A stretch of DNA of 35,102 bases from contig JAURNL010000076.1 of NCBI GenBank assembly GCA_030830205.1, positions 1-35,102 on the forward strand, given 5' to 3'. Position 1 is the stretch's first letter. Each line of letters begins with the position of its first letter. The stretch comes from Crocinitomicaceae bacterium (GTDB lineage Bacteria; Bacteroidota; Bacteroidia; Flavobacteriales_D; Crocinitomicaceae). Shown here piece by piece: positions 3,687 through 35,102 of the stretch. The notes below the pieces were generated by a model. That model made no database searches. It saw only the letters and a program-made list of their open reading frames with translations, and had not been told where the DNA came from. The translations under genes were made by a program, and so were the position numbers.

Positions 3687-3720
3687 AATGCTGCTTTATA
3701 TAACCAAGTTTGTCTAAATA

Positions 3721-9522: not shown

Positions 9523-9530
9523 CAATTAAA

Positions 9531-10877: not shown

Positions 10878-10878
10878 T

Positions 10879-12123: not shown

Positions 12124-12124
12124 T

Positions 12125-13582: not shown

Positions 13583-13584
13583 TA

Positions 13585-15693: not shown

Positions 15694-16054
15694 TAATGCG
15701 TTCTTTGATTCGAATAACTTTTGTTGCGTTCTTAGTTTCTTTAAGTTGGCGACCAGACAAGCGTTCTGCCATCTTAAATCGACGTGTAACTAATTCTAGT
15801 CTGGCTTTTGCTTCAATGAACTCTGCAGAGTGCTGATCTAGATTACGCTGAGTTGTATCTGTGTCTTTGGTGAGTTGTTTACCATAGTAGCCCTTGGAAA
15901 TCAAGAGTATGAGTAAAAACATGATGAAAAAAATGTAACTCAGATTATCAAGCACAAAAGATTTGGTAAGAAATTCACCATTTAAAATTTGGGTAAATGC
16001 CTTTGTCTTCCCCCCCTTTCGAGTAGTTTTATTTGATGTAGTCGATTTAGCCAT
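15686..16054 (-). CDS. ftsL: FtsL-like cell division protein
   Basis: Small bitopic protein expected to join FtsQ and an FtsB partner and to activate FtsW-FtsI. It has a lysine-rich cytoplasmic tail, one membrane segment (LSYIFFIMFLLILLIS) and a helical, coiled-coil-prone C-terminus (QRNLDQHSAEFIEAKARLELVTRRF). Sequence conservation is low in this family; position between rsmH and ftsI decides the call. I chose the ATG at 16054 (protein MAKSTTSNKTTRKGGK, 122 residues), which overlaps rsmH by 8 bases. The open frame continues upstream to a GTG at 16081. A run of seven Gs encodes the RKGGK stretch. Confidence 0.82.
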   Translation of the reverse strand: MAKSTTSNKTTRKGGKTKAFTQILNGEFLTKSFVLDNLSYIFFIMFLLILLISKGYYGKQLTKDTDTTQRNLDQHSAEFIEAKARLELVTRRFKMAERLSGRQLKETKNATKVIRIKERINE

Positions 16055-16961
16055 TTCTTTCTGCAATTCTGAGTTTAGCACTACGCGCTCTTGAATTCAG
16101 AGCACATTCATTTTCATCTGCAACAATAGGATGGCGGTTTACTTCTGTAAGTGGTTTTTGAACATTGCCAAAAAAGTCTTTTTCTATATCACCCGAAAAA
16201 CTCCCCCTTTTCATAAAATTCTTTACCAAACGATCTTCTAATGAATGATAGGACATTACTACCAGACGCCCACCTGGCTTGAGTACTTGAGTACTTTGTT
16301 CAAGAAAATCTTTTAACACTTGCAATTCTTGATTAACCTCAATACGGAAAGCCTGGAACACTTGCGCGTAGAATTTATGATCCTTGAATTTTGGAGCGAA
16401 ACGCTCAAGTGCTTTGATTAAGTCGAAAGTGGTTAGAATTGGGGCATTATCTCGTTGGCGAACCAAAGCAGCTGCCAAGGCTCTAGAGTTACGCAATTCT
16501 CCATATTCATAGAGTATTGCTGCCAGTTTTTGCTCATCAGCACTTGCTATGAGTTCAGCTGCAGACTGACCTCCATTGCGATTCATACGCATGTCTAGCG
16601 GCGCATCTTCACGGATTGAAAAGCCGCGCTGAGCAGTGTCAAATTGATGAGATGAAACTCCGAGATCTGCGATAATGCCATCCACACTTGGCATTCCAAG
16701 CGCACGCAAGTGATTTCTTAAAAAAGCAAAGTTCGCCGGGACAAAATGAAAATTAGGTGCGACCCATGTGTTATTACGTGCATCAGGATCTTGATCGAAT
16801 ACGACGAGGTGACCTTCTGGCGCTAAGCGCTCAAAAATGGCTCTAGCATGACCACCACCACCAAAAGTAACATCCACATAGGTTCCGTCTGACTTGATAT
16901 TCAAGCCATCCAAACAGGGTTGCAACATAACTGGAATGTGGTAGTCTGTGTTAATTTTCAT
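16047..16961 (-). CDS. rsmH: 16S rRNA (cytosine-1402-N4)-methyltransferase RsmH (MraW)
   Basis: SAM-dependent methyltransferase that modifies C1402 of 16S rRNA in the decoding centre. The SAM-binding loop is visible as VDVTFGGGGHARAIFE (29-44), and the family signatures GIIADLGVSSHQFD and MSYHSLEDRLVKNFM follow. At 304 residues it is the usual size. It overlaps the end of mraZ by 11 bases and the start of ftsL by 8 bases. It is the standard second gene of the dcw cluster, and its role there is probably coordination with growth rather than direct wall synthesis. Confidence 0.97.
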   Translation of the reverse strand: MKINTDYHIPVMLQPCLDGLNIKSDGTYVDVTFGGGGHARAIFERLAPEGHLVVFDQDPDARNNTWVAPNFHFVPANFAFLRNHLRALGMPSVDGIIADLGVSSHQFDTAQRGFSIREDAPLDMRMNRNGGQSAAELIASADEQKLAAILYEYGELRNSRALAAALVRQRDNAPILTTFDLIKALERFAPKFKDHKFYAQVFQAFRIEVNQELQVLKDFLEQSTQVLKPGGRLVVMSYHSLEDRLVKNFMKRGSFSGDIEKDFFGNVQKPLTEVNRHPIVADENECALNSRARSAKLRIAERNG

Positions 16962-19434: not shown

Positions 19435-21072
19435 ATGAAAAATTCACTGTTCGCGCTTTTATCAAGTTCCTTACTTATCTTGAGTTTTCCATACACTGGT
19501 AGTTTTACACCTTTTATTTTTATTGGACTATTTCCTCTTTTATTATTGCGACAGGAATTGATAAGGTCCGAAAAGAAGCCCTGGATGTATGCTATTTGGT
19601 ACTATATTGTCTTTTTAATATGGAACATCGGTACCACATGGTGGGTAGCAAATGCATCTCTTAGTGGAGGAATTTTTGCATTTACTATTAATGCGCTACT
19701 TATGACCATTGTATTTGGATTTTGGAGCATCCTTGATCGCAAAATGAATACACGCTATTCATTTTTTATGCTAATTCCAATATGGATTTTATTTGAATTT
19801 AGCCATCAGCGCTGGGATCTTTCTTGGCCATGGCTTACATTTGGGAACTATTTTTCTGTCCGAACAGGTTGGGTTCAATGGTACGAATGGACAGGTACGC
19901 TTGGAGGCAGTGCCTGGATTCTTTTGGTTAATCTTTTGATATACCGCTTATATAATGTGTACAGGGTTGTAGCCAAAAGAAATCAATATATAATTACTAT
20001 TCTAAGCATTTTAATTGTACCAATTGTAGTGAGTCAAATTCTTCAAGTTTTGGCCATTCCAACCCTACAACCCAAACCACTCAATGCGGTAGTGGTTCAA
20101 CCCAATATAGACCCATACGAAGAAAAATTTGCTGTAAGTGCTACCAACGAAGGATTTGTAGATTCAATTCTTTCATTAGCCAACACCTGTATCACTCCTC
20201 AAACTGATTTGGTACTTGCCCCTGAAACTGCTTTACCTTTGTCATTCCTCGAAGATCGTTTTGAAACATTTACGTTTAGTCAAAATTTACTCCAACAAGT
20301 TCAAAAATGGCCAAAAGCAAACTTACTCATTGGAGCCTCAACTGTAAAGCTCTTTAACCAAAAGAAATCTGTAGCTAGTACACCAATTCCAGGTGAACAG
20401 CGTTGGTACGAGAGTTATAATTCAACCTTATTACTTACTAAATCTAATCCACCGCAGTTTGTACATAAATCTAAATTAGTACCTGGCGTTGAATTGATCC
20501 CCTTTTCTAAATACCTCCCCTTTCTGTCTTCCATTGCCATAGAAAATGGCGGTACATCCGGAACATTAGGTATCGAGGATGAACCGATGATAATGACACT
20601 TTCTCAAAGGGATAATGACCCATCGAAACATAGCCATATAGAAGCTAATAAAGTAGTTATTGCACCTATTATTTGCTATGAATCCATCTATGGTGATTTT
20701 GTACGAAAACAAGTTCAGAAAGGAGCACAAATTTTATGTATTGTGACCAACGACGGCTGGTGGGGAGATACACCCGGATATAAACAGCATTTCTCATTTG
20801 CGCGTTTACGTGCTATAGAGACCCGCAGATGGGTTTTACGCAGTGCCAACACAGGGACAAGTGGCAGCATCGATCCAAGTGGGAAAATCATTCAGAAAAC
20901 ACCCTATTGGACCAAAACAGCTTTTACACAAACCGTCCAATTGCGCTCAGATAAAACTTTTTACGCAACATATGGAGATTGGGTTGCAGGGCTTTCTGTT
21001 TCTTGGGTATTCATCAGCTTTAGTATTTTTCTCCAGCATCTTAGTAAAAAAACCCGTAAATTGCAGCAATGA
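19435..21072 (+). CDS. lnt: Apolipoprotein N-acyltransferase (Lnt)
   Basis: Inner-membrane enzyme that adds the third acyl chain to the N-terminal cysteine of lipoproteins. The N-terminal half has about six to seven hydrophobic segments (SLFALLSSSLLILSFPYTG, WYYIVFLIWNIGTTWWVANASL, SWPWLTFGNYF). The C-terminal half is a nitrilase-like CN_hydrolase domain beginning NAVVVQPNIDPYEEKF. The catalytic Glu-Lys-Cys triad is visible in LAPETALP (E264), VHKSKLVPGVE (K347) and PIICYESIYGDF (C414). I chose the ATG at 19435 (545 residues), because the frame upstream opens with a TTG inside the likely promoter. Its stop overlaps the CotH start by four bases (ATGA). Confidence 0.94.
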   Translation: MKNSLFALLSSSLLILSFPYTGSFTPFIFIGLFPLLLLRQELIRSEKKPWMYAIWYYIVFLIWNIGTTWWVANASLSGGIFAFTINALLMTIVFGFWSILDRKMNTRYSFFMLIPIWILFEFSHQRWDLSWPWLTFGNYFSVRTGWVQWYEWTGTLGGSAWILLVNLLIYRLYNVYRVVAKRNQYIITILSILIVPIVVSQILQVLAIPTLQPKPLNAVVVQPNIDPYEEKFAVSATNEGFVDSILSLANTCITPQTDLVLAPETALPLSFLEDRFETFTFSQNLLQQVQKWPKANLLIGASTVKLFNQKKSVASTPIPGEQRWYESYNSTLLLTKSNPPQFVHKSKLVPGVELIPFSKYLPFLSSIAIENGGTSGTLGIEDEPMIMTLSQRDNDPSKHSHIEANKVVIAPIICYESIYGDFVRKQVQKGAQILCIVTNDGWWGDTPGYKQHFSFARLRAIETRRWVLRSANTGTSGSIDPSGKIIQKTPYWTKTAFTQTVQLRSDKTFYATYGDWVAGLSVSWVFISFSIFLQHLSKKTRKLQQ

Positions 21073-22661
21073 GAATTTCGATCCTCCTTGTTATCTTGAT
21101 AGTTCATTTTTACTCAAATGCACAAGTCAACTTTTCTAGTTCTTCACTTCCAATAGTTGTAATTGACACATACGGTGTCAATATACCTGATGAACCAAAA
21201 ATTGATGGATTAATGGGTATTATCAATAATGGGCCAGGGCAAATCAATCAAGTTACTGATGCTTTTAATGAATTTTATGGTCAAATTGCCATTGAAAAAA
21301 GAGGGTCATCCTCTAATAGTTTTCCTCAGAAATCATATGGCTTAGAAACTCGAGGTCCGGATTCTGTCAATTACAACGTGTCCCTTTTTAATTGGCCTTC
21401 AGACAACGATTGGATTTTATATGCACCCTACACAGACAAAGCGCTTATGCGCAACGTACTGACCTATAAACTTGGAAATGAACTCGGGCGTTGGGCTCCT
21501 CGCACCCAATTTTGCGAAGTTGTGCTCAATGGTAATTACATTGGAGTTTATGTACTCATGGAGCGCATCAAAACAAATCCTGGTAGAGTTCAAATTAATC
21601 CTCTACATTACGAAGATACACTCGATAATCACCTTACGGGTGGCTATATCTTGAAAGTAGATAAAACCACTTCTGGTGGTATTATTGCCTGGACTTCCCC
21701 CTACCCATGCCAAACACCAGGAACAGGGCCTATTCGATTTCAACTCCACGACCCAGAAATAGATACGATACACCCTCTTCAAAAAGCTTATATCCAAGAT
21801 TATATCACTGATTGGGAAGTTGCTTTAAAAAGCAACAACTTTACAGATCCAAATACTGGGTATAAGCCTTATATAGATGTTGGTTCGTTTATTGATTTCT
21901 TCCTAATCAATGAACTCTCAAAAAATGTTGACGGCTACAGAATATCCACTTTTCTACACAAGCAGCGATTTAGTGAAGGAGGCAAATTAGTAGCCGGCCC
22001 ACTATGGGATTTCAATATCGCTTGGGGAAATGCAAACTATTGTCAAGGTGGTAGTACCGCAGGCTGGGAAATCAATTTCAATAGTGTTTGTGGTGGAGGT
22101 GGTGAATTGCAGAATCCTTTTTGGTGGAACCGCATGCTTCAAGATCCATTATTTGCCAACGAAGTCAATTGCCGCTGGACCACCTTGCGTCAATCAACAC
22201 TCCATAATGATACACTTATACATTACATAGACTCTTTGGCACTGCAACTTGCTGAACCAGCATCTCGTCATTATCAAAAATGGCCAATTTTAGGGAACTA
22301 TGTTTGGCCCAATAATTTTATTGGTCAAACCTTTCAAGAAGAAATCAATTATCTCAAATCATGGATAATACAGCGTACGGCTTGGATGGATGCAAACATG
22401 TTCGGAACTTGTAATGCAAACCAACAAGAGTTTTCGCCCTACCCAATTACAATTCAACCTAACCCAACCACGGGAGCATTTCAATTAACAGGACTGCCAA
22501 ATGAAGGACAAATTTTTATTCTTGATTTATCTGGAAAAATAATCATGGAGCAAAAATATTCATCACCAAGCAATTTGATCAATATTGAAGAATTGAAACG
22601 CGGCATTTACTTTATTTCAGTACCAAACTTCGGCATCTATGAAAAAATTATCAAAGAATAG
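21069..22661 (+). CDS. Exported CotH-family protein with T9SS sorting domain
   Basis: Protein-kinase-fold family named for Bacillus spore-coat CotH, a secreted serine kinase; the substrate of Bacteroidota members is unknown. A Sec signal peptide (MRISILLVILIVHFYSNAQ) precedes the CotH domain, about 65-430. Family motifs are present: KRGSSSNSFPQKSYGLETR (77-95), NDWILYAPYTDKALMRNVL (113-131), KNVDGYRISTFLHKQR (285-300) and GPLWDFNIAWGN (310-321), which hold the aspartates needed for metal/ATP binding in characterised members. The last 90 residues (YPITIQPNPTTGAFQL to KRGIYFISVPN) are a T9SS type A sorting domain, so the protein should cross the outer membrane. It overlaps lnt by 4 bases and the next lipoprotein gene by 23 bases. 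Confidence 0.88.
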   Translation: MRISILLVILIVHFYSNAQVNFSSSSLPIVVIDTYGVNIPDEPKIDGLMGIINNGPGQINQVTDAFNEFYGQIAIEKRGSSSNSFPQKSYGLETRGPDSVNYNVSLFNWPSDNDWILYAPYTDKALMRNVLTYKLGNELGRWAPRTQFCEVVLNGNYIGVYVLMERIKTNPGRVQINPLHYEDTLDNHLTGGYILKVDKTTSGGIIAWTSPYPCQTPGTGPIRFQLHDPEIDTIHPLQKAYIQDYITDWEVALKSNNFTDPNTGYKPYIDVGSFIDFFLINELSKNVDGYRISTFLHKQRFSEGGKLVAGPLWDFNIAWGNANYCQGGSTAGWEINFNSVCGGGGELQNPFWWNRMLQDPLFANEVNCRWTTLRQSTLHNDTLIHYIDSLALQLAEPASRHYQKWPILGNYVWPNNFIGQTFQEEINYLKSWIIQRTAWMDANMFGTCNANQQEFSPYPITIQPNPTTGAFQLTGLPNEGQIFILDLSGKIIMEQKYSSPSNLINIEELKRGIYFISVPNFGIYEKIIKE

Positions 22662-23427
22662 CATCGCTCCTTTTACCCTCATTCTATTGTTAAGTATAGG
22701 TGTTTTTTCTTGCGTGAAGAAAAATCCAGGCCCGGGTGGCACTTCTGCAATCACCGGGAAAATTATTGGGCAAGAATTCAAGCCAGGAGAGCAAGAAATA
22801 CAGCAAATAACCTTTACCGGGGGCAACCAACTCGAGCATGGAGACTACTTCTTGCTCAACAAACTCACTGGGCTCAACGACAACTACTACATCTATTTTA
22901 AAAACCCAAACTGGGTATCGCCTGCAGATCCTGGCCTACAAGGTAGAATTGGCATAGAAGTCCTTTTTAACTACAGTGATTCCAACATAGACATTGCGCA
23001 AGCGGTAAAAAATAAATTGAATACACTGAGCTCCTCGGCCGTTACTTATGCGTTGTATCAAGATATACTTACCATAACATGGGGCCAGATTGGCCCAGTA
23101 TCTGACCCGGATAACGGCAGTACCAATTTTGCTATTGATATCGTTAATCAAGGTAAAGCAAATTATATCAGTCCACTTATTCAAAATATGGTTGAGCAGC
23201 GTGTCTATTTGTGCTACGGAGACGACAAATTCCCGAGTGAAGATGTCAGAACAAATCAATACGGAGAATTCCAGTTTAAGAACCTTCAAACGGGCAGCTA
23301 CAAGGTTTATGTCCTTAGCGAAGTCCCATTTTTACCCTATGACAACTTCGAAGAAAAAAGCCAGATTGTACAAATCACCCAAAAAGAAAGTATCCTTGAT
23401 ATTGGCGCACTTCAAATGATTTATTAA
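22639..23427 (+). CDS. Putative lipoprotein with carboxypeptidase-regulatory-like domain
   Basis: I do not recognise a named family for the whole protein of 262 residues. It starts with a lipoprotein signal peptide (LILLLSIGVFSC, lipid-modified cysteine about C25; the lipobox VFSC is not ideal). The middle contains repeated aromatic and asparagine-rich strands without a motif I can name. The C-terminal 60 residues (DVRTNQYGEFQFKNLQTGSYKVYVLSE onward) look like a CarboxypepD_reg/SpaA-type beta-sandwich. It is probably anchored in the outer membrane. It overlaps the CotH gene by 23 bases and the following gene by one base (TAATG), so all three are likely made together; a partner or substrate role for CotH is inference only. 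Confidence 0.7.
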   Translation: MKKLSKNSIAPFTLILLLSIGVFSCVKKNPGPGGTSAITGKIIGQEFKPGEQEIQQITFTGGNQLEHGDYFLLNKLTGLNDNYYIYFKNPNWVSPADPGLQGRIGIEVLFNYSDSNIDIAQAVKNKLNTLSSSAVTYALYQDILTITWGQIGPVSDPDNGSTNFAIDIVNQGKANYISPLIQNMVEQRVYLCYGDDKFPSEDVRTNQYGEFQFKNLQTGSYKVYVLSEVPFLPYDNFEEKSQIVQITQKESILDIGALQMIY

Positions 23428-24107
23428 TGAAGAAATTCGTATTTCCGCTTCTCTTACTTAGTCATCTTTCTTTCGCACAGACTGGCTTATGGCTTGATGC
23501 TGGGCTATCTAAAAAATGGAATAAATCGCTGAAATCTTCGATAGAACTGGGTTATAGGCAAAACCTTGGAAAAGGTTTTGACCGCATTTATGCTGATTTT
23601 GGACAGGCTGTGAAACTCATAGATGGCTTAAAAATAAGTGCTGCATATCGTTTGGTACTCAACGAAAAAGGCGATCAATTGATATTAACTGAACAGCAAC
23701 TTTCCAATCGATTCCAGCTTGGTATTGACTTTGATATTTTAGATGCTTTTGATATTGGCTCTAAACGATTGCAACTTTCTCTCAATTCTACTCAACAATG
23801 GGGCTTAGAAGCTCAAAAAAGAACTAACAGTATTTGGCGAAATAAAATCACCTTTGGATATGACATTAAGCATTTCCCAATCACCCCATTTGTTAGTGCT
23901 GAACACTTCTACAGATGGAATGCAAATGTAACTTACACAGCAACGGATGTAATCATCACTGGTGAGACGGTACAATGGCGCTATTTTATTGGTGCATCTT
24001 TTGAATTACCCAAACAACATTCCTTAAAAATACAGTTTGGGCTAAGAGATAGAGCATCAGGTGTCCAAGCCATTATGCGTGCTTCTTATCAATACAATTT
24101 CAAATAA
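23427..24107 (+). CDS. DUF2490-like outer-membrane protein
   Basis: Protein of 226 residues with a Sec signal peptide (MKKFVFPLLLLSHLSFAQ) followed by alternating polar/hydrophobic strands rich in aromatic residues, typical of an outer-membrane beta-barrel. The spacing of the strands (WLDAGLSKKWNKSLKSSIELGYRQ, DFGQAVKLIDGLKISAAYRL, SLKIQFGLRDRAS) and the overall length resemble DUF2490 proteins of Bacteroidota, whose function is unknown. It is the last gene of the lnt-CotH-lipoprotein run, starting within the stop of the lipoprotein gene, and a terminator lies 24 bases downstream. Confidence 0.7.
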   Translation: MKKFVFPLLLLSHLSFAQTGLWLDAGLSKKWNKSLKSSIELGYRQNLGKGFDRIYADFGQAVKLIDGLKISAAYRLVLNEKGDQLILTEQQLSNRFQLGIDFDILDAFDIGSKRLQLSLNSTQQWGLEAQKRTNSIWRNKITFGYDIKHFPITPFVSAEHFYRWNANVTYTATDVIITGETVQWRYFIGASFELPKQHSLKIQFGLRDRASGVQAIMRASYQYNFK

Positions 24108-24187: not shown

Positions 24188-25755
24188 TTAAAAACCAGGA
24201 TTCTGTTGTAAATTCGGGTTCAATACAATATCTGAAGTTGGAATAGGATATAACTCATATTTTGCTTCTACTCCTGCACCGACATCTACACCGCCTTTAA
24301 AAGGCCATACATAAAAAGGGCTTGTGAAAAGATCAAAACGTATGAGGTCGGTACGACGCGTACATTCCCAGTTCAATTCACGTGCACGTTCGTCAATGAA
24401 ATCATTTAATACAAGTGAAGTATAATTATGATTGAATTCCCGTATGCACGTTCACGAATATAATTCATGTATGTAAGTGCAGTTGCCTCATCACCAGTTC
24501 TGTATTTAGCCTCTGCATACATCAAGAATACGTCAGCCAAGCGGAACATTGGGAAATCAACGTCAACATGTGCTGAGGTGGCATTATTAGAACCATTCAA
24601 ACCGTCTTTCGTTTTGTTCTTGTATTTTGGATTTGGATAACCTTGAGTAAAGGTACTCATTGATGTAATATCCATTTGCTGTCCAGCGGTGTAGAACATC
24701 CAACGGGAATCCTCTGTGGAATCTGCAAATTTTTCAATAAACGGTTTTGTAGCACGGTTACCCGCCCATTTGCCATTTACACCATAGTCAGCAGCTACCA
24801 TTGATCCACCCAAAGTTGAACAAATCATAAAAGTTGTACCACCCCAAGTTTGGGCATATAATCCATCATATACTATTGGAAAGATAATCTCAGGAGAAGT
24901 ATGGTTGTCTGCCAAGAATAAATCTTGATATACATCATCTAACTGGAAGTTATTTGTATTGATGATTTTTTCACAATAAGTTGCACAATCACTATAACGT
25001 GGTGAACCCGTATATACTTCAGCATTTAGATACATCTTTGCCATAAGGGCGTGTGATGCACTGCGTGATGCGCGGCCATAATCAACACTTGAAGCAGGTG
25101 TAAGATCATTTTCAATGGCTTTCAATTCATCTTCAATATATTTAAACAAATCTGCGCGCATGATTTGTTCTGGGTTAAAGGCTCCGACACGATCTTCCTC
25201 GGTAACAAATGGAACATTACCAAATAAATCCATAGCGTGGTAATAAGCCAAGGCGCGAAGGAAACGAGCTTCATTACGCATGGTAACAATATTTGCAACT
25301 TGTGCAGCTGAAAAACCACGATCATTGAGTTTTTCATCACGTGACTGCCATATGAATTCGTTACATAACGTTATTTGGTAAAAAATACGATAATACATTC
25401 CTTTTACCCAAACGTTATCTGCATTCCATTGAGATTTATTTAAATCTGGGATACCTGGGTCATTCCAACCACAAATTGCTTCGTCGGTTGGTAACTCCTG
25501 CATGTTCCAAAGTACGCGTACATAAGCTGAAAAACCTTCGTCGATGCCTGCGATATCCGCCTGACCAGCAGGTCCTTGATTTCCAGTCATTGACATTCCT
25601 GAATACAACTTTGCAAGTACTTTAATATAATTATCAGCATCGCTATAAACTGCCTCTGCATTAAGGCCGTATTTTGGCGATTGATTTAAGTTTTTGCCAC
25701 AAGCCCCTAATAAGAGTGCACTGGCTATTACTGTATAAGCTACTAATCTTTTCAT
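24188..25755 (-). pseudogene. susD: SusD/RagB-family starch-binding lipoprotein, frameshifted
   Basis: Surface lipoprotein that caps a SusC transporter and binds the incoming glycan. The signal peptide is MKRLVAYTVIASALLLGAC with an LGAC lipobox; I chose the ATG at 25755, ten bases after the susC stop. TPR-like helices run through the middle (FLRALAYYHAMDLFGNVPFV). The frame breaks near 24430: after YMNYIRERAYGNS it runs into a stop (IIIILHLY). The -1-shifted frame continues TSLVLNDFIDERARELNWECTRRTDLIRF and ends YPIPTSDIVLNPNLQQNPGF, the conserved SusD C-terminus. Adding one base restores a 522-residue protein of normal size. As written, about 80 C-terminal residues are lost. Whether this is a real mutation or a sequence error cannot be told here. 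Confidence 0.85.
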
Positions 25756-25765
25756 GGTTTCCGAA

Positions 25766-28700
25766 TTAGAAATCAAACGTTAAGTTAACTGAAAATACGC
25801 GTGGACGCGGATAGAAATTGTTGTCTATACCTCCACCTATTTCTGGGTCTTGACCACTGTATTTGGTCACAACAAATGCATTTTGTACTACAAAGCTAGC
25901 ATTGAGTCCAACCTTTTCTTTAGCAAAACCTAGTTTACCAAAGTTGTAACCAATGTTAATGAAGTCCATTCGTAAGAAGTTTGCTATTTCTAAGTAATGG
26001 TCACTCATCAATTGGTTGGCCGTTACTCGCTGAACCTCATCTTGGTAATACAATGAACTGATATTATTCAGATATTTTTTTGTACCATCAATGGTTTGGA
26101 ATACAGCACTGTTAGAATGAATGTTGTTGTAAATAGTAGCACCTAATTCAGCTCTAGCAGAGAAGCCCGCATACCATTTTTTGTACTGGAAATTGATGGC
26201 AGTTCCAAAGAACATTTTTGGTGCAGCCTGGCCAGAGTAATAGCGATCTTCAACATTGATGATACCATCTCCATTTTGATCTACAAATGCATTTGTATCT
26301 TTCCATTTGTCTGCAGCAGTAATTTGACCATCACCGTTCATGTCAATTTCGGCTTGCGAACCTACTTCAATTACACGTCCTTGAGAATCATATTGTTGTT
26401 CAAGAACAAAGAACGTATATGTTGGATAACCAACTTGATGTGCTTGAATGGTATTTCCGATACCTCCACCAATTCCACCAATTAATACCCCTGGTGAAGT
26501 TGTATCAACAACTTGAGATAACTTCACAACCGTGTTTTTGTTATAGGTGGCATTAAGCGTCCAGTCTAGGCGCATATCTTTCTTTGCAATTAAACCAGTA
26601 TTGACAGATACTTCTACACCTCGGTTTTGCATGGCACCCACGTTAGTTAAAATTTCGTTGGTGAAATTCGTACCAGCAGGAACAGGAACCGTTGCTAATA
26701 AATCGCGGGTGTCTTTTTGATAAACGTCAATACTACCTGAGAAACGATCATTTTTGAAACCAAAGTCTAATCCTAAGTTATAGGATGAAGTAGTTTCCCA
26801 TTTGAGGTTTGCATCAAATCCAGCTGGACGTAAAACTTGATAATACTGTCCGCCAAAAGCATATTGTGCAGTAGTAGCACCTTGGAAGTAATTACCAATA
26901 TATGCGTAATCACCAATGCCATCCTGCTGACCAGTTACACCCCAACCTGCACGTATTTTTAACATATTGATGGACTTGCTATTTTTCAAGAAATCTTCTT
27001 CAGAAAGTAGCCAAGCTGCAGACGCAGCAGGGAAAATACCCCAACGCTTATCAGGACTAAAGCGCGAAGACCCATCTCTACGTACAGATACATTGAATAC
27101 ATATTTACCTGCATAATTATAAATTGCACGACCGTAATAAGACATCAAGACATTGCGAGTGTAGAATGGGAATGCCGTCTCAGGAGCAATAACACTATCC
27201 TGGGCTTCATTCCAAGTAGGATTATTTGGGCTGTAAGTATCCCAATCCTGATAAGAATAACCTGCAACAACCTCTAAGGTTTGATTTTCCCATTTTGAAC
27301 CAGAATTATAGCTCAAATATGATTCAAACAATTTGTTGGTTTTTGTAGTTCTGTATTTACTATAGCGTCCGTCTGTATAATATCCGGATGCTGATGAAGC
27401 AGGCGTAATTGTATAACCTGTTCCTTCTGAGAAATCACCACCAACATTTACTGTTGCTCTTAATGCTGGAAGCGATGGTAGGTTATAAGTTAGTTTTGCA
27501 TTTGCAATTGCACGATTTACCTTGCTTTGGTCTGTAGATTGCTCTATCAATCCTAATGGGTTGCGCGCAGATAATGTATTTGGCTTATTATTATCAATCC
27601 ATTCAAAATAACCACCATAAGCATCATTCCCTGAATAAATAGGTTGTGTTGGATCAAAGAAAGCAGCACCCAAGGCACCACGATTAGCGAAAAAAGAGGC
27701 AGTTTGTACATATTTCAAGTTTGCTTCAATCTGCAAGGTCTTATCTAGTAGACTTGGATTCATGTTTAATCCTACTGTTGTACGTGCAAATTGATCTCTT
27801 TTGAGGATACCGTTATCCATGCGATTACCAACAGACAAGCGATAAGGGAAGTTTTTTATACCTCCAGTTATGGAGACGTTGTTATCGCTTACCACCGCGG
27901 TACGGAAAACTTGTCTTTGCCAATCAGTACTTGAATCTCCAAGCAATGCTTGCTGAGCTGCAGTACCATTTGCATTTACCAAATTTCTCAAGGAGTCTGC
28001 ACTCAAAACATCAAAATATTTTGCAATTGTAGAAATAGATGTTTTAGAATCAAGTACGACTTTTACATCATTGGAAGATGAACCCCTCTTAGTAGTAATC
28101 AAGATGACACCATTTGCAGCTCTTGAACCATAAATGGCTGTTGCGGATGCATCCTTAAGGACCACAAAAGAAGCGATGTCATTAGGGTTAACAAGAGATA
28201 ATGGATTTGCAGCGCCTGCAATACCTCCGTTATCTAATGGCACACCATCAACCACGATGAGTGGATCATTGGATGCATTGATGGAAGTTCCTCCACGCAA
28301 ACGGAGTGTGCTTCCTGAACCAGGGGCCCCATCGTTAGATGTCACTTTCAATCCGGCTACTTTACCCATTACGAGCTGCTCCGGACTTGCAAGGGAGCCT
28401 TGGACAAAATTTTTCTCGTTGATGATGGTTGCTGAACCAGTTAAATCTTTGGTTCTTTGTGTACCATATCCAATAACTACAACATCGCCAACATCTTGTG
28501 TTTTAGATGCCATTTGAAAATTATTGGTAGTCATTTGGTTGGCCACTACAGTTACTTGATCTGACTGAGGATCCATACCCATGAATTTGTACACTACCTT
28601 GTAGGTACCAGCCTTCATTCCAGTAATTTCATAATAGCCTTTGTCGTTAGACACTGCGCCCTTGCCCTGACCTTCCACCAACACCGAAGCGTTGAAGAGC

Positions 28701-28816
28701 GGAACGCCAGCTGCATCCGTGATGATTCCTTGAATGCCAGTTTGACCAAAAGCCAAAAGCGACATACCAAAAAACATCAAAAGGGCAAAAAAACTTGTAG
28801 TAGTTTGTTTTTGCAT
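25766..28816 (-). CDS. susC: SusC/RagA-family TonB-dependent transporter
   Basis: Outer-membrane TonB-dependent importer for oligosaccharides, here probably maltodextrins given the amylases upstream. It has a signal peptide (residues 1-24), a CarboxypepD_reg domain (about 27-108, GIQGIITDAAGVPLFNASV), then the SusC plug with DVVVIGYGTQ, DPLIVVDGVPL and DIASFVVLKDASATAIYGSRAANGVILITTKRG. The rest is a beta-barrel ending in VFSVNLTFDF, with the terminal Phe used for outer-membrane insertion. Two calcium-type loops (DMNGDGQIT and DQNGDGIINVED) lie in an extracellular region, as in many SusC proteins. The length of 1016 residues is normal. It has its own promoter and is followed by susD 10 bases downstream. 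Confidence 0.96.
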   Translation of the reverse strand: MQKQTTTSFFALLMFFGMSLLAFGQTGIQGIITDAAGVPLFNASVLVEGQGKGAVSNDKGYYEITGMKAGTYKVVYKFMGMDPQSDQVTVVANQMTTNNFQMASKTQDVGDVVVIGYGTQRTKDLTGSATIINEKNFVQGSLASPEQLVMGKVAGLKVTSNDGAPGSGSTLRLRGGTSINASNDPLIVVDGVPLDNGGIAGAANPLSLVNPNDIASFVVLKDASATAIYGSRAANGVILITTKRGSSSNDVKVVLDSKTSISTIAKYFDVLSADSLRNLVNANGTAAQQALLGDSSTDWQRQVFRTAVVSDNNVSITGGIKNFPYRLSVGNRMDNGILKRDQFARTTVGLNMNPSLLDKTLQIEANLKYVQTASFFANRGALGAAFFDPTQPIYSGNDAYGGYFEWIDNNKPNTLSARNPLGLIEQSTDQSKVNRAIANAKLTYNLPSLPALRATVNVGGDFSEGTGYTITPASSASGYYTDGRYSKYRTTKTNKLFESYLSYNSGSKWENQTLEVVAGYSYQDWDTYSPNNPTWNEAQDSVIAPETAFPFYTRNVLMSYYGRAIYNYAGKYVFNVSVRRDGSSRFSPDKRWGIFPAASAAWLLSEEDFLKNSKSINMLKIRAGWGVTGQQDGIGDYAYIGNYFQGATTAQYAFGGQYYQVLRPAGFDANLKWETTSSYNLGLDFGFKNDRFSGSIDVYQKDTRDLLATVPVPAGTNFTNEILTNVGAMQNRGVEVSVNTGLIAKKDMRLDWTLNATYNKNTVVKLSQVVDTTSPGVLIGGIGGGIGNTIQAHQVGYPTYTFFVLEQQYDSQGRVIEVGSQAEIDMNGDGQITAADKWKDTNAFVDQNGDGIINVEDRYYSGQAAPKMFFGTAINFQYKKWYAGFSARAELGATIYNNIHSNSAVFQTIDGTKKYLNNISSLYYQDEVQRVTANQLMSDHYLEIANFLRMDFINIGYNFGKLGFAKEKVGLNASFVVQNAFVVTKYSGQDPEIGGGIDNNFYPRPRVFSVNLTFDF

Positions 28817-28903: not shown

Positions 28904-31360
28904 TCACCACATAACCTTTAAATTGCATGAATTTTGATCGATTGATAAATATGTAGGCTCTAAAATATAAATGCTGCCAGCTTTAGGGTCAAAAGAAAAT
29001 TTTACCTTCTTACCATTTAAATACATCCTTTTTGGAGCATTTGGCGAATGAATCAAGAGGGAAAATTTAAAATATTTTTCCTTGACCAACTTTCCAATTT
29101 CGGCCTCAAATTGCAGTGTGCTTTGTTGTTCATGAGTGGAAACAGAACACTTTAACTTCTTAGATGCCCCAAGTGCTTCAGCATTAAAGAGAGCCCCGTC
29201 ATCCTCATACCAAACGAATTCATTTGAAAATTGTATTTGTTTAGGATCCAGATATAAATTTAAAACAACCGCTGTATCAGCATATTCTTCCGTACTTTGA
29301 ATAACCGAAGTCATAGGTATAAAAGAACCGGATTTCACAAATACAGGGATTTCCTGTAGTGATTTGGGGGTTTCAACCATCACAAATTCATCTGACCTTT
29401 GCTCGGTGGCTGCTGAATAAATTAATTTTGAACTGTGAAAATCAAACCAAGAAGATTCAGCCGGTAGTGCCGTTTTGTACGTTGATGCTGCATCGGATCC
29501 TAAAGAGTCAGTGATTGCATGCACTAAGAAAGCACTCCCCCACATATATGTTTCATGCGCTTCAAAGGACCACATGGCTTTTGGAAACTCCATAAAAATT
29601 GGTCTCATTAATGGAACCCCATGCAGGTGATTTTCGTATGCTAAACTATAATTGTACGGCAAAAGTTGGTAACGCAATTCAATAGCAGCTTTAGCAAGTG
29701 CTTTTGTTTTTTCATCTTTGAAAATGGCTTCGCTTGGCTCTTCTTGTTGAGCATGGGGTCTAAATATCGGTTGAAAAACCCCATATTGCAACCAACGCAC
29801 GTAAAGCTCTGGGTCTGTATTTGCTCCAGCAAAACCACCCAAATCTGAATGCATATAAGCCATACCTTGTAAGCCCATTTGCATCGATATTTCCATTTGA
29901 GGCTTCAGGCCGCCCCATGTTCTATTGACATCTCCAGACCACGGAACCATACCAAATTGTTGAGAACCTGAATAGCCAGCGCGCATTAAGATAAATGGAC
30001 GTTCACTCGGGAAATCATGGCGATATCCTTCGTATAATAACCTTGCCCAATCGTGACCATAAATATTATGAACCTCATCGGCCCATTTGTTACCATGCTT
30101 CAGATTCGTTGGATGTACTTCAGGCTCGCCTAAATCTCCCCAAAAACCAGCTACACCCTGACCGTGTAGATTTGTATAGATATCCCAAAACCAAGTTCTT
30201 GCCTCCGGTTTGTACAAATCTATCAACCCCGTATTTCCAAAATAAAAATCATAGCGATAAGAATTGCCCGCAGAATCTGTACCTAAAAGTTTAAAGCGGT
30301 CTGCTTCGTTCCATTTTTTCGAAGTCGTTAACACGAATGGCTCAGTTATCAAAATAGTTTTGATATGCTGTTTACGAAAATCAGCAATCATTTGCTCGCC
30401 ATTTGGAAATGAATCTCTGAAAAATTCAAAATTCCCTAGGGTTCCTTGAATATCTTTTCCAAACCAATACAAGTCGAAAATAATAGCGTCTAGCGGAATT
30501 TGTTGTTTTTTGAATTCCGAGATAACATTTTTCGCTTCTGATTCAGAGTGATAACCAAAACGGCTGGCAAAATTTCCTAATGTCCATCGAGCGGGCATAG
30601 GTTGGCGACCTAATAAGTGTGTGATATTCTCTGTTAAATTTTTCCAATCATTGGCAACAACTACTTGATAGCGCAGAGGGCCGCCAATTACTTCATACGT
30701 TAATTTGTTTTCCTTTTTAGAATCGAGGTCTAAAAAACCAATTTGTGGATTGTCGAAATGAATGGCATAACATTCATCTGAGATGACAATTGGCATGGTG
30801 AAATTCATGAGTTCTGAATGCGTTTCATACCCGTAATGCGCACGATTATAGAGTTGCAAGCGGTAACCCCTCCGATTCATACCAAGTGCACGCGCCCCGG
30901 CGCCCATTAATTGCTCATCTTTTTTTAGATTGAATTCAAGGCTTGGTGTTTCACCCAAATAATAACCGCGAGCCTCAGATGTAATTAGTTGATCTTTGTA
31001 AAAAAACTGAAGTTCAAATTGTGGACTGGTCTTGACCACCACATGAAAGTCACCATTTTCAATGTTAAAAAATTCATAAGGCAATTTAGCGTCAGAGACT
31101 ATCGAGTAAAGAAAAGGCTTTGATTTTGTAGGGAGCACTACCGCATGAGATGCAGCTAATGTGGTGGTATCACCTTTAGGAATAAAACTTACTTCAAGGA
31201 TTTGATCCGTATAAGCAGCTAATAAGTACTTGCCATCGCTTACTTGAATTTCACAACCTGAATCTGTAAGCTTGTGTGAAATATATTGTCTAGTTGGGTT
31301 TTGAGCAAAGACGAAAACGCCGTAAGTAATCGCAAAGAAAAAGAACGTATATTTCAACAT
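28904..31360 (-). CDS. GH31 alpha-glucosidase / 4-alpha-glucosyltransferase
   Basis: Glycoside hydrolase family 31 enzyme acting on alpha-glucans with a retaining mechanism. A Sec signal peptide (1-20) sends it to the periplasm or beyond. An N-terminal beta-domain (about 30-250) is followed by the TIM barrel. The nucleophile is predicted as D409 in GFWGDLGEPEVHP, the acid/base as D477 in VPWSGDVNRTWGGL. The motif DLGEPE instead of the common DMNEP is shared, as I recall, with the Cellvibrio Agd31B alpha-transglucosylase group, so transfer rather than hydrolysis is possible. C-terminal beta-domains follow from about 620. No T9SS domain is seen. It sits 2 bases after the GH13 gene in the same unit. 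Confidence 0.9.
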   Translation of the reverse strand: MLKYTFFFFAITYGVFVFAQNPTRQYISHKLTDSGCEIQVSDGKYLLAAYTDQILEVSFIPKGDTTTLAASHAVVLPTKSKPFLYSIVSDAKLPYEFFNIENGDFHVVVKTSPQFELQFFYKDQLITSEARGYYLGETPSLEFNLKKDEQLMGAGARALGMNRRGYRLQLYNRAHYGYETHSELMNFTMPIVISDECYAIHFDNPQIGFLDLDSKKENKLTYEVIGGPLRYQVVVANDWKNLTENITHLLGRQPMPARWTLGNFASRFGYHSESEAKNVISEFKKQQIPLDAIIFDLYWFGKDIQGTLGNFEFFRDSFPNGEQMIADFRKQHIKTILITEPFVLTTSKKWNEADRFKLLGTDSAGNSYRYDFYFGNTGLIDLYKPEARTWFWDIYTNLHGQGVAGFWGDLGEPEVHPTNLKHGNKWADEVHNIYGHDWARLLYEGYRHDFPSERPFILMRAGYSGSQQFGMVPWSGDVNRTWGGLKPQMEISMQMGLQGMAYMHSDLGGFAGANTDPELYVRWLQYGVFQPIFRPHAQQEEPSEAIFKDEKTKALAKAAIELRYQLLPYNYSLAYENHLHGVPLMRPIFMEFPKAMWSFEAHETYMWGSAFLVHAITDSLGSDAASTYKTALPAESSWFDFHSSKLIYSAATEQRSDEFVMVETPKSLQEIPVFVKSGSFIPMTSVIQSTEEYADTAVVLNLYLDPKQIQFSNEFVWYEDDGALFNAEALGASKKLKCSVSTHEQQSTLQFEAEIGKLVKEKYFKFSLLIHSPNAPKRMYLNGKKVKFSFDPKAGSIYILEPTYLSIDQNSCNLKVMW

Positions 31361-31362
31361 AA

Positions 31363-33258
31363 TTAATGACTTAACTTGATGATGTATGAAGTTTTGGCCG
31401 GGACTTTTCCTGTGGGCACTTCAAAATCAAAAGTTTGATTCGTCAGGACATCTTTCCCCTTGTCAAAACCGAAGAATCCTTCTGAAAAACGAGACCAATT
31501 GAGTGTTTGTTCCTCTTTTGAATTATTGATAATAACCATTATCACCTCAGCCGGTTGCGCCATTTCTTTGATTGGCTCTAGATAACGGAAATAAACATAC
31601 AAGTTATTTTGCGGTACGAACTGGAGTAATTTACCTTCATGAATAACCTTTTGCCCTTTTCTCCAATTCAAGAGTGTTTTTGTGAACTGAAAATAAGCCT
31701 CTTCTTCAGGTGTTCTACCAGTTTGAGACCCTCTGCATTTGAGATCTTCATTGCTGCAAAATGCAGAATGCTGATCTGTAGCCCAACCACCCGGAAAGTC
31801 TCTGCGAATATCGGCATCACCAACTGACTTACTTCCTTTCATGCCAATTTCCGAGCCGTAGTAAATTTGAGGTATTCCTCTTGTTGTTGCAATTAAAGTT
31901 AAGGCCATTTTATAGTCTGCCATATCTGGAAACGATTCGTTGAATCTTTGGGTATCGTGGTTTTCCATGAAAACCAACAAATTTTGAGGATTAGCATAAA
32001 GGTAGTCTTGTGAAAAATTCTCGTAAAATCGGATCATTCCTTGATCCCATCCTTGTTGCTGCTCCTTCCAAGCTTGCATTATGGCATCATGTAGCGTAAA
32101 ATCCATAACAGAAGGCATGTTGCTATTGAAATCTTGAAGCGCACCAATAGGACTATCTTTTTGCCAAAAAGACATTTGTGCCTGATCGTGCATCCAGACT
32201 TCACCCACAATATTTAAATTAGGGTATTCCGTCATGATTGCTTTTGTCCATTGAGCAATCGCGTCTTTATCATTATATGAATAAGTATCTACACGCAAGC
32301 CATCAAGTTGAGCATACTCTATCCACCAAATCGTATTCTGAATGAGGTATGTCAACAACAAGGGATTCTGCTGATTCATATCTGGCATTGTAGTATCAAA
32401 CCAACCATCAGCAGAGGCCTTTTGATCTATTTTTGATGCATAAGGGTCAAATTGTGTTGTAGTACGATAGCTGGATCGAGTGAAATGATCAAACTGATGT
32501 ATCCAAGTAGCAGTAGGGAGGTCTTGTATCATCCAATGCTTGCTCGACCAATGATTGGGAACCTCGTCCTTGATTACCTTCAAGCCTTGACGATGAGCCT
32601 CTAAGACCATTTCTTTATACCAAGTATTAGTACCATATCGCGGATCTATTTTATACAAATCAGATTGAGCATAACCATGATAAGAATACGTAGGTTCATT
32701 GTCCTCTAATAATGGAGTAGTCCAGATAGTGGTTGCTCCTAATTCTTTAATATAACTCAGACGTTGGATGATACCCATGATGTCACCTCCATGTCGACCA
32801 CTAGGATTGGATCGATCTGTTTGTTCTTTGACATCAGGATGCTTGTCTAAACCCTCATTTCCGTTTGCAAATCGATCTGGCATTAATAAATAGATGACAT
32901 CTGAACTGTTGAAACTTTGTCTGTATTTACTTTCATTCATGCGTTCTTCCAACATAAATTCGTGTGAGGCCATAACTTTCTTATTATCTAGAAGCTTGAT
33001 TGGATAAGTGCCCGCAACTTTATCTTTTGTTTCTAAAGTGACAAAAATATAGTTAGGGTTCTCAGTACGAATTTCCTCAAGAACAACGAGACCAGAAACT
33101 TCTACACGAAACTTAGAGATTTGAGGTCCATGAAGTAAGACTTGAACTTGATGATGTTCCATATTTACCCACCAATTACCAGGCTCTACATGCTGTAAAA
33201 CTTGTGCTTGAGCAAAAGAAAATAACAAGAGGAAAAAAGAGAGGTTAATCCATTTCAT
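31363..33258 (-). CDS. GH13 neopullulanase/cyclomaltodextrinase-type alpha-amylase
   Basis: Probable SusA-like enzyme that cuts maltodextrins and related oligosaccharides. The signal peptide is MKWINLSFFLLLFSFAQAQ. An N-terminal beta-domain (VEPGNWWVNMEHHQVQVLLHG) is the cyclomaltodextrinase-type N domain, then the GH13 barrel begins at YLLMPDRFANGN. Conserved regions are visible: I DEVPNH (from D231), II LDGLRVDTYSY (nucleophile D324), III NIVGEVWMHD (acid/base E353), IV MENHDTQRF (stabiliser D435). The chosen ATG at 33258 (631 residues) lies inside the CotH end; the frame continues up to a TTG at 33285. There is no T9SS domain or lipobox, so a periplasmic place is likely. Confidence 0.93.
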   Translation of the reverse strand: MKWINLSFFLLLFSFAQAQVLQHVEPGNWWVNMEHHQVQVLLHGPQISKFRVEVSGLVVLEEIRTENPNYIFVTLETKDKVAGTYPIKLLDNKKVMASHEFMLEERMNESKYRQSFNSSDVIYLLMPDRFANGNEGLDKHPDVKEQTDRSNPSGRHGGDIMGIIQRLSYIKELGATTIWTTPLLEDNEPTYSYHGYAQSDLYKIDPRYGTNTWYKEMVLEAHRQGLKVIKDEVPNHWSSKHWMIQDLPTATWIHQFDHFTRSSYRTTTQFDPYASKIDQKASADGWFDTTMPDMNQQNPLLLTYLIQNTIWWIEYAQLDGLRVDTYSYNDKDAIAQWTKAIMTEYPNLNIVGEVWMHDQAQMSFWQKDSPIGALQDFNSNMPSVMDFTLHDAIMQAWKEQQQGWDQGMIRFYENFSQDYLYANPQNLLVFMENHDTQRFNESFPDMADYKMALTLIATTRGIPQIYYGSEIGMKGSKSVGDADIRRDFPGGWATDQHSAFCSNEDLKCRGSQTGRTPEEEAYFQFTKTLLNWRKGQKVIHEGKLLQFVPQNNLYVYFRYLEPIKEMAQPAEVIMVIINNSKEEQTLNWSRFSEGFFGFDKGKDVLTNQTFDFEVPTGKVPAKTSYIIKLSH

Positions 33259-34672
33259 AAATACGTTGTTGAGTTCCATTTTCAAAGATTATGATTTTTA
33301 CACAATTTTTAGCGTCGGGTGCAATTTCTCTTCCAAGAATATCAGTAACACATCGTACTTTACCATTAGGATTTTGATTTTCCTCCAAGCCAAGAGAGCA
33401 AGGGTTTGTTAAAGCCTGATAAGTACTAAGCTGTGCAAGCGCACTGGTTTTTCGAGTTTGGAGGTAAGGTATAATGCCTGACTTCACGTGTGCTCCCCAA
33501 CTTTCTTGTAAAGCGTCTAAAAAATCTTGATCACTAAAACCATAGTCTAATCCTTTGAAGTCATCCAACAAAGCTGCGGGAGCGATGAGTTGTTGCATAT
33601 TTTCTAAGTTGGATTGGAGTGCCGATACATTCCAAACATTGCTAAGGAGATCAAGCATGTGGAAAGTAAAACGGTCCCTGAAATAGGGTACCGCCAAAAG
33701 CTTTGAGTAAAGAGGACGACTTTGATTTCCTGGTGACCAAGTATAGATGTTGCGCAATGCCCAATTGATATTGAACCAATCAATACCGAAAGTATTATCA
33801 AGGTCGTAGGATAAGAAAACAATTTTCTGATCGCTTTCGCGTTGGTATAATAAGTAATTATTCTTATTGTAGGCATAACCATCCCATTGCCCCATCAAAA
33901 TTTCCAATGCAATATTGCGCAAAAACATTTCCACATCAAAAACTTCTTGTATCGCACATGCAAAATTAGTTGAAGGCGTATTATTTAAAACATCAATAAA
34001 ATGGATCAATGCGGAATAGTCGGCACTATCTTTATTTGTTTTTAACTCATATACTGCTTGATAACTCGTTGGATTAGCACCCCACCAAGTGAGATCAGCA
34101 CCATATGCACATTTCCAAAGATTTCCATTAGCTTGCCCCGGGAATCGGAGGTCCAAGAATTCATCATCAAGGTGCTCTACATTTAGGTATAAACCTTTAT
34201 ATACATTATTTATAAAGAGTTTGATATAACTTGTACGCGACGCTGGAAGTGCTGCAGATCGCAATAATTGTTGGGCAAGGTATGAACGCATAATAGAGAC
34301 ATCATTATGTTCGCCGTTCAAATTAATTTCCTCTAAACCTTGAAACTTTTGGCCCGAAATAAAACGATTAAAGTCGATTTTAAAGGATTTTTTTTGCGAA
34401 GCTAAGGAGGTATTGCCCCTTGCTCTAAATCCAATACTATCCGTAGTAACGTTTAAAACCGTACTTTGGTAATGAACAGTAGCCATAAATTCGTGGCCAC
34501 TATATAAACTATCTCCAAGTAATAAATTCAAAGAATCGGGATGAATATCAACATATACACTCGCTACTTCATCTTGAAGAAATGCTAAATTATACGGTGG
34601 CTGAACAACTTGGGCCAGGGTCCCCTTGATGCAAATCCAAAGAAAAGCCGATAAACAAATAGATTTAAGCAT
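33245..34672 (-). CDS. CotH-family protein inside the starch locus, T9SS-type C-terminus
   Basis: Second CotH protein of the window, 475 residues from the ATG at 34672. A signal peptide (MLKSICLSAFLWICIKGTLAQ) precedes the CotH domain. Motifs: FRARGNTSLASQKKSFKIDF, NGEHNDVSIMRSYLAQQLL, the GQWDGYAYNKNNYLLY segment (about 261-276) and FLSYDLDNTFG (287-297). The last two correspond to the catalytic/metal-binding D-x5-N-x-Y and D-x-D regions of Bacillus CotH, so kinase activity is plausible. The end (VTDILGREIAPDAKNCVKIIIFENGTQQRIYE) resembles a shortened T9SS sorting domain. The gene starts 10 bases after the amylase stop and overlaps the GH13 start by 14 bases, so it belongs to the locus; its role there is unknown. 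Confidence 0.85.
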   Translation of the reverse strand: MLKSICLSAFLWICIKGTLAQVVQPPYNLAFLQDEVASVYVDIHPDSLNLLLGDSLYSGHEFMATVHYQSTVLNVTTDSIGFRARGNTSLASQKKSFKIDFNRFISGQKFQGLEEINLNGEHNDVSIMRSYLAQQLLRSAALPASRTSYIKLFINNVYKGLYLNVEHLDDEFLDLRFPGQANGNLWKCAYGADLTWWGANPTSYQAVYELKTNKDSADYSALIHFIDVLNNTPSTNFACAIQEVFDVEMFLRNIALEILMGQWDGYAYNKNNYLLYQRESDQKIVFLSYDLDNTFGIDWFNINWALRNIYTWSPGNQSRPLYSKLLAVPYFRDRFTFHMLDLLSNVWNVSALQSNLENMQQLIAPAALLDDFKGLDYGFSDQDFLDALQESWGAHVKSGIIPYLQTRKTSALAQLSTYQALTNPCSLGLEENQNPNGKVRCVTDILGREIAPDAKNCVKIIIFENGTQQRIYEMD

Positions 34673-34682
34673 CAAATATTCC

Positions 34683-35102
34683 TTAATCAATTTTTACGAA
34701 TCCTTCATTTGCCATTGCTTGGCCCACTTTAATTAAAAAGTGATAGTTACCCGGTGCAAGATCCATCACATTGAATAGTAACTCATTTGTACCACTAGAT
34801 GAGGTGCCTTGTCTCTCAATTACAACTTGGCCCGCCTCATTTAAAAGCAAAGCCTTGTATGGTGAGATAGTAGAAGATTGGAAACGCAAGGTTACTGATT
34901 GAGCCGATGGATTTGGATATACGTTTAAATCAAAACTTGAATGCATCAATTCATCAATGGAAGCTGGAGCCTCAGTAATAGCTGGTTGATCTAATTTGAC
35001 ATCAGTGTATATTCGGTATTCTCCGGCAATAAGACTTATTGGCGCAAGTGAATTAGATACATTAATACTATCTCCGGTAAAATATTCATACCACCATCCT
35101 GC
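34683..35102 (-). CDS. Alpha-amylase C-terminus with T9SS sorting domain, N-terminus cut by window edge
   Basis: Only the last 139 residues are in the window. The first part, translated by hand (GWWYEYFTGDSINVSN, then LIAGEYRIYTDVKLDQP), matches the final beta-domain of Bacteroidota GH13 alpha-amylases, which typically reads W-x-Y-F-x-G then L-x-P-G-E-Y-R-x-Y-T. This is followed by a T9SS type A sorting domain from about FDLNVYPNPSAQSVTLRF to NYHFLIKVGQAMANEGFVKID. The protein should thus be exported across the outer membrane and act first on starch. It is the most upstream gene seen of the locus; any operon promoter lies outside the window. The catalytic domain is not visible, so the enzyme class rests on the C-terminal domain and context. 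Confidence 0.75.
   Translation of the reverse strand, partial: AGWWYEYFTGDSINVSNSLAPISLIAGEYRIYTDVKLDQPAITEAPASIDELMHSSFDLNVYPNPSAQSVTLRFQSSTISPYKALLLNEAGQVVIERQGTSSSGTNELLFNVMDLAPGNYHFLIKVGQAMANEGFVKID

Follow-up and report, generated by a model that had tools for sequence, protein, structure and literature searches.

The CotH family, and its link to polysaccharide degradation through cellulosomes, are already known, and the CotH proteins of Mucorales fungi are known as surface invasins. In Bacillus, CotH is a spore-coat kinase described as phosphorylating CotB and CotG, and the B. subtilis variants D228Q and D251A are described in the same source as inactive (PMC7821199). CotH proteins also occur in the cellulosomes of clostridia and anaerobic fungi, where their role is treated as unsettled in the accounts drawn on here (PMC12484212, PMC6083626, PMC8665504), and the Fam20 kinases of the animal secretory pathway are described as acting on exported substrates (PMC7948968). 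The present analysis concerns CotH1, the gene for a CotH kinase-family protein of 475 amino acids (aa) at positions 33245–34672 (minus strand) of a 35,102-nucleotide stretch from a Crocinitomicaceae bacterium (assembly GCA_030830205.1, contig JAURNL010000076.1), the whole of which is referred to below as the window. The gene lies inside a Sus-type starch locus that recurs in relatives, and across the order its presence in a genome goes closely with that of an amylase. This starch-locus setting of a CotH gene, its conservation and its specific partner appear to be new.

The open reading frame (ORF) of CotH1 comprises 475 aa and a stop, and its product matches PF08757 at E 5.2e-63 and 213.9 bits (cut-off 23.8) over profile positions 2–299 of 322, with the kinase domain at residues 83–378 (33539–34426, minus strand). 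The original prediction, made from the letters of the window, placed such a gene between an exported alpha-amylase and a GH13 enzyme, coupled to them by a 10-base gap and a 14-base overlap, and the measurements agree: 10 bases separate the stop of the upstream amylase from the CotH1 ATG, and the last 14 bases of CotH1 overlap the GH13 gene, which starts with its ATG at 33258. The amylase gene is truncated by the contig end and in the window only its C-terminal 139 aa are visible, with a type IX secretion system (T9SS) tail (34683–35102, minus strand; Por_Secre_tail). That it is an exported alpha-amylase was shown through a second contig of the same genome (G000:C36), which opens with the window's last 23 bases and carries the remainder of the gene, with matches to DUF4961, CBM48 and Alpha-amylase; GH13 catalytic-triad-like motifs are readable by eye in one full-length relative of the amylase. 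On the other side of CotH1 are, all on the minus strand, the GH13 gene for a cyclomaltodextrinase/neopullulanase-like enzyme (31363–33258; PF00128, PF09087, PF10438, N- and C-domains), a GH31 alpha-glucosidase-like enzyme (28904–31360; PF01055, E 5.8e-80), a SusC-like TonB-dependent receptor (25766–28816; PF00593, PF07715, PF13715) and a SusD-like protein (24406–25776; PF07980, PF14322), spaced by 2 bases (GH13–GH31), 87 bases (GH31–SusC) and −11 bases (SusC–SusD). On G000:C36 the amylase is preceded by a protein of 337 aa that ends in a T9SS tail. It has no PF16411 (SusF_SusE-like) match itself; its orthologues in three of seven genomes of the genus match that model at E ≤ 0.001, under the cut-off apart from one that falls just above it, and PF14292 gave matches in none of the 12 genomes searched. 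The order of the locus is thus a weakly SusE/F-like gene, amylase, CotH1, GH13, GH31, SusC and SusD. The adjacent SusC/SusD pair together with alpha-glucan hydrolases identifies it as a Sus-type starch locus, and the arrangement is recurrent in relatives. CotH1 itself is strongly constrained, with nonsynonymous divergence (pN) of 0.12–0.17 and synonymous divergence (pS) of 0.78–0.84 against three relatives.

Among 100 genomes, the source genome included, 87 match CotH1 in some degree, many of them at 50–82% identity, and the loci of the genus repeatedly show the order amylase, CotH, GH13, GH31, SusC and SusD where contigs allow. The named loci compared comprise the best 80 of 566, a choice that favours close relatives; among these 80, CotH is immediately preceded by the amylase in 52 and immediately followed by GH13 in 65, while an amylase stands anywhere on the locus in 54 and an amylase or GH13 in 67. 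Amylase and CotH abut tightly: with the earliest possible start taken for the count, the spacing is −1 or −4 bases in 31 of the 52. CotH beside amylase or GH13 genes is therefore found in other genomes, as the original prediction had asked to be checked, and a chance neighbourhood in one assembly can be rejected because the gene order recurs across relatives. In loci L038, L039, L042 and L047, from other families of the order, the gene order is CotH (732–744 aa), amylase, SusC; the CotH proteins of L038 and L042 were scanned and have lamin-tail and T9SS-tail matches, some under the cut-off.

The co-occurrence statistics suggested at the outset gave a strong association within the order. With an amylase cut-off of E ≤ 1e-60 and a CotH1 clade cut-off of E ≤ 1e-80 (1e-70 for the phylum), 299 order genomes yielded the amylase in 150 and the CotH1 clade in 136, with both in 131, amylase only in 19, CotH1 only in 5 and neither in 144, an odds ratio of 199. 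The Fisher test takes no account of shared ancestry, and its p-values are therefore read as description. CotH1 and the amylase lie within 3 kb of each other in at least 61 genomes, 30 in the order amylase–CotH and 31 in the order CotH–amylase; this count is a lower bound because amylase positions covered only part of the genomes, and the source genome is outside it because its amylase is on another contig. In four genomes from other genera of the same family (G145, G116, G171 and G323) CotH1 and the amylase are 21–25 kb apart on opposite strands, and in G145 CotH still heads a run of CotH, GH13, GH31, SusC and SusD.

A second CotH-family gene in the window, CotH2 (21069–22661, plus strand; 530 aa, PF08757 E 3e-58), which lies past SusD and has a standard T9SS tail (PF18962), served as a control in the same 299 genomes. 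It was present in 147, with both CotH2 and amylase in 82, amylase only in 68, CotH2 only in 65 and neither in 84, a weak tie (odds ratio 1.6, p 0.06) against the 199 of CotH1; the match between the two is imperfect, since CotH2 was searched with a single sequence at 1e-50 and CotH1 with a profile. In 17 hand-picked genomes of the genus that have both genes on one contig, CotH2 is 10.5–12.3 kb from CotH1, and in these 17 the CotH genes bracket the starch locus at both ends. After CotH2 come, at 22639–24107 (plus strand), a 262-aa ORF without a Pfam match and then a DUF2490 protein. The source genome has five CotH-family matches in all. Another pairing of CotH genes was seen in four records, two from each of two lineages of the family, where a divergent second CotH of 753–755 aa lies head to head with CotH1 (L150, 178–2445; L152, 6517–8778; L194, 8163–10430; L195, 7837–10098); the copy in L194 has a lamin tail and a T9SS tail.

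By sequence, the only relative of the kinase domain in the PDB is B. cereus CotH (E 2e-17 with the single sequence, 4e-42 with a profile); the other PDB match of the profile, a lipase, covers only the T9SS-tail part. The AlphaFold2 model of CotH1 (pLDDT 85.4) matches 5jda at a Foldseek E of 1.3e-19, and the two superimpose with Z 37.6 and rmsd 2.4 over 348 aligned residues, while Z against Fam20 kinases is about 10–11. In the alignments, Asp264 (33881–33883) and Asp290 (33803–33805, both minus strand) fall on two aspartates of B. cereus CotH that are spaced 23 residues apart, as are D228 and D251 of B. subtilis, and on this spacing they would be the equivalents of D228 and D251, respectively. 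All 108 distinct members of the clade keep both, and all likewise keep Trp263, Asn269, Asn271, Asn272 and Asp292; Lys94 and Lys95 are found in 107, with one gap. The 108 derive from 191 BLAST hits: 178 passed minimum thresholds of 36% identity and 330 query positions covered, and identical domains were then dropped; the other 13, partial and distant, were excluded from the count. The catalytic aspartates are kept, as had been predicted from the one gene, and their conservation disfavours a pseudokinase.

One predicted detail, the T9SS export of CotH1, received no backing from the standard tail models. Its N-terminus, judged by eye, is hydrophobic and ends in LAQ, with a modelled helix at 2–19, and resembles a signal peptide. 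Its C-terminus gave no match to PF18962 or TIGR04183 (NCBIfam searched to E 5), and CotH1 is not classed as T9SS cargo because neither sorting domain was matched. Instead it ends in a short, non-standard tail of 46 aa (33248–33385, minus strand), which is modular in the genus. The pattern of about 40 aa, D..GRE...N.PLI.IYSDGS.EK, also ends unrelated secreted proteins of the genus (L172–L188). A narrow tail profile (A2) found only CotH1 itself and one poor match in the source genome, and a broader one (A3) found the C-termini of unrelated secreted genus proteins, with 23 of 40 genomes matched, six times in G017; the 23 are partly due to CotH1 itself, and some of the matches in G007 are in very short frames. 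The pattern was visible in all 17 A3-matched stretches examined. Eight of the tail proteins were scanned and include similarities to serine hydrolase, PHB depolymerase, leucine-rich repeat and mutarotase-like proteins; the matches listed for these eight included no T9SS tail model. T9SS signals are described as normally 70–100 residues long, and the signal of HBP35 as mapped to its last 22 (PMC11285876), which makes a short T9SS-type tail plausible for CotH1. The 46-aa tail is thus a plausible candidate for a short T9SS-type sorting tail, and CotH1 may still be exported through it.

From these observations it could be proposed, tentatively and at somewhat under an even chance, that CotH1 is both a selected component of the starch locus and an exported CotH/Fam20C-type kinase that acts on surface starch proteins. 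CotH1 would then be a genuine part of the Flavobacteriales alpha-glucan (starch) utilisation locus, kept by selection, and its putative N-terminal signal peptide would export it. Working in the periplasm or on the cell surface as a kinase of the CotH/Fam20C type, it would most likely target Ser and Thr residues of proteins made and exported together with it, in the first place the adjacent T9SS amylase, and the modification might adjust how the starch-degrading machinery at the surface is assembled or how active it is. By analogy with the action of CotH on CotB and CotG, an exported kinase working on the starch machinery would be the simplest reading that makes use of the kept catalytic residues, and the recurrent association of CotH with the amylase suggests, short of proof, a role for phosphorylation in the extracellular capture of starch. 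A bolder form, in which the exported kinase phosphorylates the surface amylase or the alpha-glucan and so controls polysaccharide capture, at its boldest as a bacterial surface starch kinase, is improbable.

Several observations weigh against the proposal of a starch-locus kinase. ATP is scarce outside the cytoplasm, and its source is the main difficulty. Within the genus, CotH1 and the amylase could have been lost jointly because one operon holds both. In 70 of the 131 order genomes with both genes the two were not seen within 3 kb, a figure that rests on incomplete amylase positions and may in part reflect contig breaks. Family f3 has the amylase without CotH1 in eight genomes and both in two, and so provides eight of the 19 amylase-only genomes, the main exception in the order. 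Neither an amylase nor GH13 is near CotH in 13 of the 80 named loci, and in L036–L049, 14 loci that represent other families of the order, the amylase is at most 5 kb from CotH in seven, the other seven having none within 5 kb, some of them at contig ends. In the phylum, 395 genomes gave a CotH1-like gene in 50, the amylase in 200 and both in 44 (odds ratio 8.9). Outside the order, the CotH1-like gene was found in 47 genomes, 41 of them with the amylase, and no close pair was seen by eye in the 38 of these for which an amylase position was listed: the amylase is on another contig in 33 and on the same contig at least 17 kb off in five, the nearest at about 17 kb (G470). A linkage of CotH and amylase as a phylum-wide rule is accordingly unsupported. 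As far as tested, the close tie is a feature of the order and not of starch loci in general, no close pair having been present among the outside-order genomes examined.

A quick tree (116 rows, no bootstrap, with long-branch warnings) gives a provisional view of how the unlinked genes arose. Nested in the part of the tree where CotH is linked to the amylase is a mixed group; of its 15 rows, 14 have no amylase, GH13 or SusC nearby. SH-aLRT is 100 for this group and ranges from 81 to 98 at the forks that determine its placement, and the nesting reads as a loss of linkage; the remaining non-linked rows, mostly of family f9, are placed elsewhere in the tree. Among the loci compared, the taxon titles of L097, L101, L102, L103, L124, L131, L145, L146, L148 and L151 look misassigned: such titles name Chryseobacterium gleum, Chitinophaga pinensis, Polynucleobacter meluiroseus and Sphingomonadales, and the CotH1 rows group with rows labelled Flavobacteriales or Crocinitomicaceae.

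Three other explanations have to be considered beside that of a kinase acting on surface starch proteins. CotH1 could be a surface scaffold or glycan-binding adaptor, its kinase fold holding the amylase or starch and catalysis being incidental. Precedents exist in that both structural and regulatory roles have been proposed for cellulosomal CotH (PMC12484212) and that the CotH of anaerobic fungi has been speculated to bind the plant cell wall (PMC8665504), and relatives of CotH1 in other families have lamin-tail domains, T9SS tails or both. This is nevertheless unlikely, since the invariance of both catalytic aspartates would be unexpected in a pure scaffold, and a T9SS protein with weak SusE/F similarity in relatives already stands ahead of the amylase. 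The same protein disfavours a related idea, that CotH replaces SusE or SusF. The gene could also be a general surface kinase or envelope protein, unrelated to starch, that merely travels with the operon, as might be expected from its position elsewhere in the 15-row mixed group and several other lineages, from family f3, which mostly has the amylase without CotH1, and from the number of CotH-family matches in the source genome. This is unlikely, however, in view of the co-occurrence that persists where the genes are 21–25 kb apart, the neighbourhood that is kept in two opposite gene orders, and the CotH2 control, which shows little tie to the amylase.

The remaining alternative, very improbable, is that CotH1 phosphorylates glycan. 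Fam20B, of the same fold class, is described as doing so (PMC7948968). The operon neighbours of CotH1 are alpha-glucan hydrolases and SusC/SusD, which would suit such an activity, but the Pfam matches across the locus revealed no gene for the handling of phosphorylated sugars. Furthermore, to our knowledge, although no search aimed at it was made, there is no known glycan kinase of the CotH family. The reading that CotH1 is an exported kinase of surface starch proteins remains the one preferred here, with the reserve already expressed.

Within the literature searched, no paper combines CotH with SusC and SusD, or with Flavobacteri-, starch and SusD, and none combines the term 'CotH kinase' with amylase and with type IX secretion, although papers matching these terms in part may still mention CotH. 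The papers in which CotH does appear together with polysaccharide utilization loci and Bacteroidetes deal with a lake mat, a gut catechol enzyme and Roseburia; the one that has both CotH and T9SS is unrelated, and one listed for CotH, glycoside hydrolase and Bacteroidota has no CotH in its main text. Gene order and co-occurrence tie one CotH clade to a defined pathway in which the candidate partners can be named, and with such partners a possible phosphorylation of exported polysaccharide-degrading enzymes by bacteria becomes directly testable. Away from the starch locus, the window carries at 2043–16961 (minus strand) a cell-division and cell-wall cluster (FtsZ, FtsA, Mur ligases, a MurG-like protein, FtsW, a transpeptidase and MraW), of which eight ORFs were scanned.

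Compared with the spore-coat kinase CotH of Bacillus (PDB 5jd9, 5jda), CotH1 belongs to the same family (PF08757) and shares its predicted fold and catalytic aspartates, but the identity is 24%, CotH1 is apparently exported by a Gram-negative bacterium and has a short C-terminal tail, and it is encoded in a starch locus, whereas the Bacillus gene lies beside cotB and cotG. The Fam20 secretory-pathway kinases have the same fold class, at the Z values given above, but they are animal enzymes and their identity to CotH1 is about 10%. With the CotH proteins of clostridial and anaerobic-fungal cellulosomes, CotH1 has in common a CotH domain tied to extracellular polysaccharide degradation; the cellulosomal proteins are described, in the sources cited at the outset, with dockerins, whereas CotH1 has by Pfam the CotH domain alone and its partner is a SusC/SusD starch locus. 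The Bacteroides Sus locus has the GH97 enzyme SusB where a GH31 enzyme stands here. With the Sus-type loci of Bacteroidota the present locus shares SusC, SusD, a surface amylase, GH13, GH31 and perhaps, on weak similarity, a SusE/F-like protein, and it differs from them in that its amylase has a T9SS tail and in that an extra gene, CotH1, is placed within the operon.

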